From Psychroflexus halocasei (GTDB lineage Bacteria; Bacteroidota; Bacteroidia; Flavobacteriales; Flavobacteriaceae): DNA of 64,000 bases. The DNA is taken from the NCBI RefSeq assembly GCF_900107595.1, contig NZ_FNQF01000001.1, forward strand, positions 186,001 to 250,000, given 5' to 3'. Made by a program: the position numbers and the translations under genes. Below the pieces are notes generated by a model. That model worked only from the letters and a program-made list of their open reading frames with translations. It had not been told where the DNA came from and ran no database searches. Below, in pieces: positions 27,614 to 29,184 of this stretch (position 1 is its first letter; the number at the start of each line of letters is the position of its first letter).

Positions 27614-28738
27614 TTATTCAAATAAATTGAGGTATTTTTTAAAGACATAAAGCTTACCTCTTTTACTTCCTGTTATTTCTTCAAGAATACCTAATTCTTC
27701 CAAATCACTGATAAGGTTGTAAGCTGTTCGGTTGGAAACCTGTGCAACTTCTTCAACTTTTTTCGCATCAATAACTGGTCTTGTTAATAAATATTGTAAA
27801 ATCTTTTGCGCATTATTAGCTCGTGAACCTAAAGTTTGAATATTGAATTCTGAATTTTGTTTTAATTTTAAAATCTCATCAAAAGTTTCAACCCCTTTTT
27901 TTGCTGTTTCTATGATGCCTACTAAAAAGAATTTAAGCCATTGCTTCATATCATTTTGCGTTCTAACTCTCGTCAAGTTTTCATAATAAAGATCTTTATT
28001 TTTTTCAAAAAAATCTGACAAGTATAAAATAGGTTTTTTTAAAATTTCTTTATCAACCAAGTATAAGGTTATTAAAAGTCTCCCTACTCTTCCGTTACCA
28101 TCTAAAAAGGGATGAATTGTTTCAAACTGATAATGAATCACACCAATTTTAAGTAAATCCGGAAAAAAGAACTTTTGATTGTGCGTAAACTTTTCGAGGT
28201 CACTCATTAATTCATTTATACTCGTATGTTCAGGCGGAATAAAAGTAGCATCGTTTATAGAAGCGCCACCAATCCAGTTTTGGCTTTTTCTAAATTCTCC
28301 TGGTTGTTTATGTTCACCTCTTACACCTTGTAGCAAAACTTTATGCGTTTCTTTAATTAGTCGGCTAGAAAATGGGATTTCTTGAAGCAACTCTATGGCT
28401 TTACTCATTGCTGAAATGTAATTTTGCACTTCTTCCCAGTCATCTTTTTTTTCACTTGTTACATCATCTTTATCAAGCAAAGCCTCTTCTATATTTGTCT
28501 GCGTCCCTTCAATTTTACTACTTTGAGTCGCTTCTTTTAGAACGTGCATACTTATAAAAAGATCTACATCTGGTATATGTTCACTATACATATCTAACCT
28601 CCCAAGCTGTCTATCTGCTTTAGATAATAAACTTAAAAGCTTCATATCATTCAACAACCATTCTTTATTTATAATGTTGGGCTGAAAGCTTTTATAATAG
28701 TCTTGACTTATATATAAACCCGATGTGAAATTTTGCAT
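27614..28738 (-). CDS. Fic-domain protein with N-terminal inhibitory motif and winged helix
   Basis: 374 residues. The Fic active-site motif HPFLDGNGRVGR is complete at 209-220, so it should transfer AMP (or another nucleotide moiety) from a nucleotide onto a target. An inhibitory-helix motif SSKIEG at 73-78, with Glu77, matches the (S/T)xxxE(G/N) motif of self-inhibited Fic proteins with the helix in front of the core. The C-terminal part (about 310-374) reads as a winged helix-turn-helix (VEEVAQVSNRTAYNLISDLEE). The gene stands alone between repeat-rich intergenic regions. A phased array of half-sites begins about 12 bases upstream of the ATG, which suggests autoregulation. Target is unknown. 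Confidence 0.93.
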   Translation of the reverse strand: MQNFTSGLYISQDYYKSFQPNIINKEWLLNDMKLLSLLSKADRQLGRLDMYSEHIPDVDLFISMHVLKEATQSSKIEGTQTNIEEALLDKDDVTSEKKDDWEEVQNYISAMSKAIELLQEIPFSSRLIKETHKVLLQGVRGEHKQPGEFRKSQNWIGGASINDATFIPPEHTSINELMSDLEKFTHNQKFFFPDLLKIGVIHYQFETIHPFLDGNGRVGRLLITLYLVDKEILKKPILYLSDFFEKNKDLYYENLTRVRTQNDMKQWLKFFLVGIIETAKKGVETFDEILKLKQNSEFNIQTLGSRANNAQKILQYLLTRPVIDAKKVEEVAQVSNRTAYNLISDLEELGILEEITGSKRGKLYVFKKYLNLFE

Positions 28739-28750
28739 AATTTAATTATA

Positions 28751-28860
28751 GTTTACATTAACAAATTTCTTATTGCAAAATACAAGATTCTTTTACAATA
28801 AAGAATTTACTATTGCAAAATACAAGCTTTTTTTACAATAAGAGATCAGCTAATACAAGA
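28751..28860 (-). promoter_or_regulatory. Phased array of inverted half-sites upstream of fic (putative operator)
   Basis: Two near-identical 30-base units, 28771-28800 and 28811-28840, repeat with a 40-base period. Each is TATTGCAAAA, ten bases, TTTTACAATA, an inverted repeat with one mismatch between arms. Weaker half-sites continue the same 20-base spacing outward: GTTTACATTA at 28751 (8 of 10) and TAATACAAGA at 28851 (7 of 10). The regular 20-base step would put every half-site on the same face of the helix. It covers the likely promoter region of fic. The protein's own winged-helix domain is the obvious candidate binder (inference). Confidence 0.65.
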
Positions 28861-29184
28861 TGTTGCATTTATTTATAAATAACAGTTTTTCGGTTTTCGG
28901 TGAATAATGAATTTTGAATGACTCTATCGGTTATCGGTTGGCTGTTCTCTGTTGACAGTTTTCGGTTGACTGTTCTCAGTTCTCAGTTTACGGTTATCAG
29001 TTATTAGTTTTTCTGTTTGACTTTGTGAAATTAGATTGGTGATTAAAAAGAAAAAGTAATGACTAATCATAGCCTATTGTTTAATTACAAAATAATTAAG
29101 GATATTTGACTAATTGATTATACTTTTTGGTTAATTTTAACGAATAATAATAATTTCAACTCTCTGTTTTTAAAATTATATGAC
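28861..29184. repeat. Degenerate GTT/CGG-type intergenic repeats before the T9SS cargo gene
   Basis: Bases 28885-29010 are built from variants of CGGTTATCGGTT, GACAGTTTTCGGTTG and CTGTTCTCAGTT, in seven-to-ten base steps. The segment around 28901-28943 resembles 31005-31055 (GAATGACTCTATCGGTTA in both). Bases 29011-29184 are AT-rich with no clear promoter. No gene is supported here. Confidence 0.65.

Follow-up and report, generated by a model that had tools for sequence, protein, structure and literature searches.

What reads the array of short, evenly spaced half-sites that precedes a fic gene in the window, the 64,000-nucleotide stretch of Psychroflexus halocasei DNA analysed here? An earlier sequence-only reading had described strong half-sites alternating every 20 bp at 28771, 28791, 28811 and 28831, had placed weaker ones on the same grid at 28751 and 28851, and had suggested that the Fic protein itself, through a C-terminal winged helix, reads them as its own operator. 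The strong sites lie in the window sequence exactly as claimed, and the weaker ones fall on the 20-bp grid in the expected orientations:

28731 to 28740, plus strand: grid half-site across the fic start codon, TTTTGCATAA, 8 of 10 positions matching
28751 to 28760, minus strand: weaker grid half-site within the lattice chain, GTTTACATTA, 8 of 10 matching
28771 to 28780, plus strand: half-site, TATTGCAAAA
28791 to 28800, minus strand: half-site in reversed orientation, reading TTTTACAATA on the plus strand
28811 to 28820, plus strand: half-site, TATTGCAAAA
28831 to 28840, minus strand: half-site in reversed orientation, reading TTTTACAATA on the plus strand
28851 to 28860, plus strand: weaker grid half-site within the lattice chain, TAATACAAGA, 7 of 10 matching

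The array does adjoin fic, with the small correction that the gene runs on the minus strand (27614 to 28738), so that the array extends up to its start codon. Since the region of that codon, ATGCAAAAT (Met-Gln-Asn, 28731-28740), doubles as a grid half-site, the lattice may even enter the coding sequence. The further claim that all sites occupy one face of the DNA is only approximately right, because a 20-bp step corresponds to about 1.9 helical turns.

Scored as alternating half-sites, the window lattice reaches 34, against a mean of 11.2 and a maximum of 17 over 1000 dinucleotide shuffles. Its dyad, TATTGYAAAA-N8-12-TTTTRCAATA, occurs in the 2.67-Mb genome only as the two window copies. With up to three mismatches allowed there are four further places genome-wide and a reversed control pattern gives an equal number; no further operator target in the same genome stands above chance. 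Degenerate 7/14-bp quasi-tandem repeats (GGTTATCGGTT and similar) lie at 28887-29020, just past the array, and at about 31057. Similar strings are also present downstream of fic, so that a dispersed intergenic repeat may flank fic and its array with copies on both sides.

What kind of protein does the adjoining gene encode? The gene and its parts are as follows:

27614 to 28738, minus strand: gene for a SoFic-like Fic AMPylator of 374 aa, with Fic_N, Fic and a C-terminal winged helix
28505 to 28522, minus strand: class II inhibitory motif S73-SKI-E77-G78, from sequence, conserved in the homologue alignment
28079 to 28114, minus strand: Fic catalytic motif HPFLDGNGRVGR, residues 209-220, near-invariant in the homologue alignment
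27629 to 27832, minus strand: C-terminal winged helix, residues about 303-370, from predicted structure and a weak HTH_13 match
27695 to 27736, minus strand: predicted recognition helix with its N-cap, residues 335-348, including R337 and N341, from structure and covariation

The product matches Pfam Fic_N (1.5e-27) and Fic (7.6e-18), and its C-terminal region matches HTH_13 weakly. The winged helix that had been claimed for this region is borne out by the predicted structure, which has helices at 304-317, 325-332 and 336-348 and a wing, with mostly high pLDDT. The SoFic domain set (Fic_N, Fic and a C-terminal winged-helix fold) is complete, the class II motifs (S/T)xxxE(G/N) and HPFxDGNGRxxR are met by SSKIEG and HPFLDGNGRVGR, both near-invariant among homologues, and the predicted fold aligns best with SoFic 3zcn/3eqx (TM 0.78-0.81). 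The PADLOC SoFic model (PDLC03963) matches over its full length (residues 14-373, 410.7 bits, E 1.6e-123), and the NCBIfam SoFic equivalog NF046030 scores 176.4 bits, not reaching its cut-off of 550 bits. Judged by these matches the protein is related to Shewanella SoFic without being its equivalog, and SoFic-like AMPylator is the most fitting name for it, with its AMPylation and anti-phage activities inferred. In the window, fic is monocistronic.

Does the arrangement recur in front of related genes? The comparison of homologues that the sequence-only reading had proposed was run on 220 bp of upstream DNA per homologue (80 homologues from an 84,980-species collection, others from related genomes), with a score of at least 17 counted as a lattice. 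Half-sites alternating every 20 or 21 bp do recur, in 68 of 90 upstream regions, against 0.7 of 90 in shuffles, 0 of 89 regions inside the genes and 5 of 85 downstream. Of 54 genes collected afterwards as a second set, mostly from Bacteroidota, 46 have the lattice; this set is partly related to the first and thus counts as a check, not as a fully independent sample. When the step was scanned from 12 to 33 bp the signal peaked sharply at 20/21 and was near zero elsewhere except in neighbouring registers (19/20), and direct repeats with periods of 40 and 41 bp were found at 27 and 25 of 90 loci, with 0.6 expected for each. Lattices typically hold four half-sites, and up to 8-9. Among other Fic families, one of 20 upstream regions reaches the threshold, with a score of exactly 17. 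On this comparison the family-wide lattice is a trait of SoFic-like homologues, in which the spacing of the half-sites is conserved and their sequence is not.

The trait has its gaps. In a group at about 40% identity the lattice is weak, with just 4 of 24 regions at threshold, and even at a looser threshold no 40-42-bp repeat is present in 25 of the homologue regions, several of them proteobacterial with fic close behind an upstream gene. Proteobacterial homologues without an array include L082, L083, L087, L088 and L090; in several of these fic closely follows an upstream gene, some apparently of restriction-modification type, and any operator would be expected in front of the operon. Two broken fic genes with an early stop (L081 and L125) retain a lattice-like upstream region.

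If the Fic protein reads its own array, the half-site should change together with the helix that contacts it. The half-sites of the homologues include several types (TTGCAA, CTTAAATAA, AAGTAAAATAA, CTAAAATAA, TGCAAATAT, CTTGACTAA and CTCCACTAT), and across 372 alignment columns and 109 loci, in a ranking that controls for catalytic-core identity, half-site similarity is best predicted by residue 337, then 341, then 335, all at the start of the predicted helix 336-348. The pair at 337/341 is R/N with TTGCAA in the clade of the window, P or V/K with CTTAAATAA, K/D or K/E with AAGTAAAATAA, A or T/K with CTAAAATAA and S/R with TGCAAATAT. Identity of the winged helix explains half-site similarity beyond that of the core (partial r 0.21, p 0.001), and core identity adds nothing significant beyond the winged helix (p 0.20). 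When second-set loci sharing their pair with a first-set locus, at core identity below 75%, were set against other loci, the pair predicted the half-site class in 31 of 32 cases (p 1.7e-6); permutation within core-identity clusters gave p 0.003, the minimum possible with 300 permutations. One locus of Tannerella forsythia (L054) has a core about 80% identical to V/K proteins with TTAAG sites and carries K337/E341 and AAGTAAAATAA sites, like proteins of a different clade that are about 62% identical in the core; compared with its closest kin, its helix and its operator have both switched.

The code is not without blemish. Taken by itself, the second set ranks residues 335, 337 and 341 at 2, 6 and 13, none of them first, and some core positions, which are probably clade markers, score equally high; among the most divergent pairs (core below 62%) residue 341 drops to rank 35, and there are exceptions (L146 and L060). 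Covariation of half-site identity with the protein's own recognition helix is what one expects if Fic itself is the reader, and recognition of the array by that helix is strongly supported by such sequence evidence, in the absence of binding data.

Related lattices differ in pitch. Upstream of SoFic relatives on viral contigs the 20/21-bp lattice is found in 19 of 65 regions, and a second peak at 25/26 bp (9 of 65) comes mainly from one sister group at about 41% identity, in which TTGAAATAA half-sites alternate at a step of 25-26 bp:

L256, L254, L262, L270, L274, L280 and L292, on viral contigs: sister-group loci with a 25-26-bp lattice upstream of fic

A Bacteroidota subfamily at about 31% identity (L025-L031) has GAGGGTAAA-like half-sites upstream of fic at spacings of 30, 40 and 70 bp. 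These differing spacings suggest that lattice pitch belongs to the protein subfamily and that many proteins of this type may have evenly spaced lattices. Phage copies of the operator acting as decoys were also considered: four viral contigs match, none with a nearby Fic and mostly as single dyads, and we take them as chance. On one viral contig (L220, positions 15-44) a TTATTGTAAAAA inverted repeat stands before a small gene at the contig edge, with no Fic gene in the stretch examined; it is probably chance, possibly a phage operator.

What would binding accomplish? In homologue upstream regions the Bacteroidota -7 box TAnnTTTG peaks inside the lattices, between -40 and -21 relative to the start codon (24 occurrences in this bin against 0-4 in each other 20-bp bin), so that occupied sites would cover the promoter; the upstream regions of the window's own clade show no canonical TAnnTTTG box. 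We propose, and consider it probable, that the Fic winged helix reads the array as its own gene's operator and represses that gene, with binding, repression, cooperativity and a role in defence all inferred. Each half-site of 10-12 bp would take one winged helix. Fic would dimerise via alpha-1, its N-terminal helix, as EcSofic and CccR do, and a row of such dimers along the DNA would cover the promoter. Such alignment is possible because dyads alternate about every 20 bp from one half-site to the next: even alternation gives every half-site dyads on both sides, so that a dimer could bridge one dyad and the adjoining dimers could meet at the following one. Self-repression by this inferred chain is the simplest reading, and it would keep the level of a SoFic-type AMPylator, which may be toxic, low and self-limited. 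The earlier interpretation is supported: covariation points to the Fic protein as the reader, and the position of the array on the promoter and the precedent of CccR strongly suggest self-regulation, without binding or expression data.

A bolder extension, which we regard as unlikely though worth stating, is that SoFic-type AMPylators form an ordered chain on a DNA lattice with a subfamily-set pitch of 20-20.5 or 25-26 bp, whose occupancy controls activity as well as expression. If true, the operator would serve an abortive-infection enzyme as a brake or sensor encoded in DNA.

Could the lattice instead be mainly a docking and inhibition platform, on which Fic is kept as an inactive ordered oligomer, with repression secondary, until loss of DNA, for example in phage breakdown of host DNA, frees the active AMPylator? 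Lattices often hold more half-sites than simple repression requires, but few sites hold only few molecules, and simple repression already explains why lattices overlap promoter boxes. In the relative CbFic2, DNA binding does alter both dimerisation and (de)AMPylation (PMC10628234), and EcSofic toxicity is under control of its CTD (PMC12249575), whereas loss of the dimer in CccR hardly changed toxicity (PMC9755527). We think such a platform rather improbable. The array by itself does not identify its reader, and with fic monocistronic here an unrelated regulator encoded elsewhere, for instance a stress or phage-response protein, might read it and control fic; yet half-site sequence varies among homologues in step with Fic residues 337/341, and the lack of further dyads above chance in the genome runs contrary to a global regulator. 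Nor is any neighbouring gene co-conserved: no flanking gene family occurs at more than 7 of 90 loci, the commonest being probable type I restriction genes (5-7 of 90, judged by eye from translations), and a co-conserved neighbouring regulator was not found among them. An outside reader thus seems very unlikely. That the array is a chance or non-functional AT-rich tandem or inverted repeat, as the AT-rich surroundings and other simple repeats nearby might suggest, can be dismissed, since no shuffle exceeded half the window score and the comparison of homologues, with the spacing found again in more than 100 of them, refutes it.

Self-repression through the lattice bears on a wider family. SoFic proteins are widespread anti-phage enzymes whose winged helix was previously without a known DNA target; our analysis offers a concrete predicted target for more than 100 SoFic-type proteins, together with a recognition code that pairs residues with the bases they are predicted to read. 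Likely shutdown of its own gene via the operator lattice offers a simple reason for the tolerance of a self-contained toxic enzyme, and the fixed pitch limits how dimers can pack on DNA. Lattice DNA altering enzyme activity would, if true, be the most interesting outcome, with the effect of random DNA on CbFic2 as precedent (PMC10628234). The claim that no array of such geometry had been described holds within the open-access literature searched (subscription papers and preprints were outside its scope), where we found CccR, CbFic2 and EcSofic and no lattice, although CccR is a self-repressing relative that the sequence-only reading did not know. The family-wide lattice, the helix code and the 25-26-bp sister group appear undescribed in the open-access papers searched.

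How, then, does the window protein compare with known systems? Phd-Doc, a toxin system with a Fic fold, regulates its promoter cooperatively via several operator sites, with toxin and DNA-binding antitoxin as separate proteins; unlike in Phd-Doc, inhibitor helix, enzyme and DNA reader lie in one chain in the window protein. With SoFic and EcSofic (3eqx, 3zcn; PMC12249575) it has in common domain order, fold, and inhibitory and Fic motifs, at about 28% identity. EcSofic dimerises through its N-terminal helix (PMC12249575) and has a 47-aa antitoxin, AS1, encoded downstream, for which the window fic offers no convincing counterpart, merely ORFs of 20-37 aa; DNA binding by SoFic was undemonstrated to date according to a 2023 paper (PMC10628234). 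CbFic2 of Coxiella burnetii (8cil) likewise combines Fic with a C-terminal winged helix; its dimerisation is induced by DNA, best with 20-bp DNA, and random DNA, the only kind tested, changes its enzyme activity, its operator being not known (PMC10628234). CccR of Yersinia pseudotuberculosis, a Fic-HTH protein, represses its own promoter through its HTH and dimerises through alpha-1 (PMC9755527). It is secreted as a T6SS effector, its identity to SoFic, over part of its length, is given as about 29%, and about 70 A separate its helices. Its operator is one inverted repeat with a 26-bp spacer, a 36-bp step that the window array does not show, and no equally spaced lattice has been described for it, whereas the window family has a repeated 20-21-bp step. 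Like CccR, the window protein is a class II Fic AMPylator with a C-terminal HTH and inverted 10-bp sites in its own promoter; in homologues promoter boxes lie inside the lattices, though a canonical box is absent from the window's own clade.
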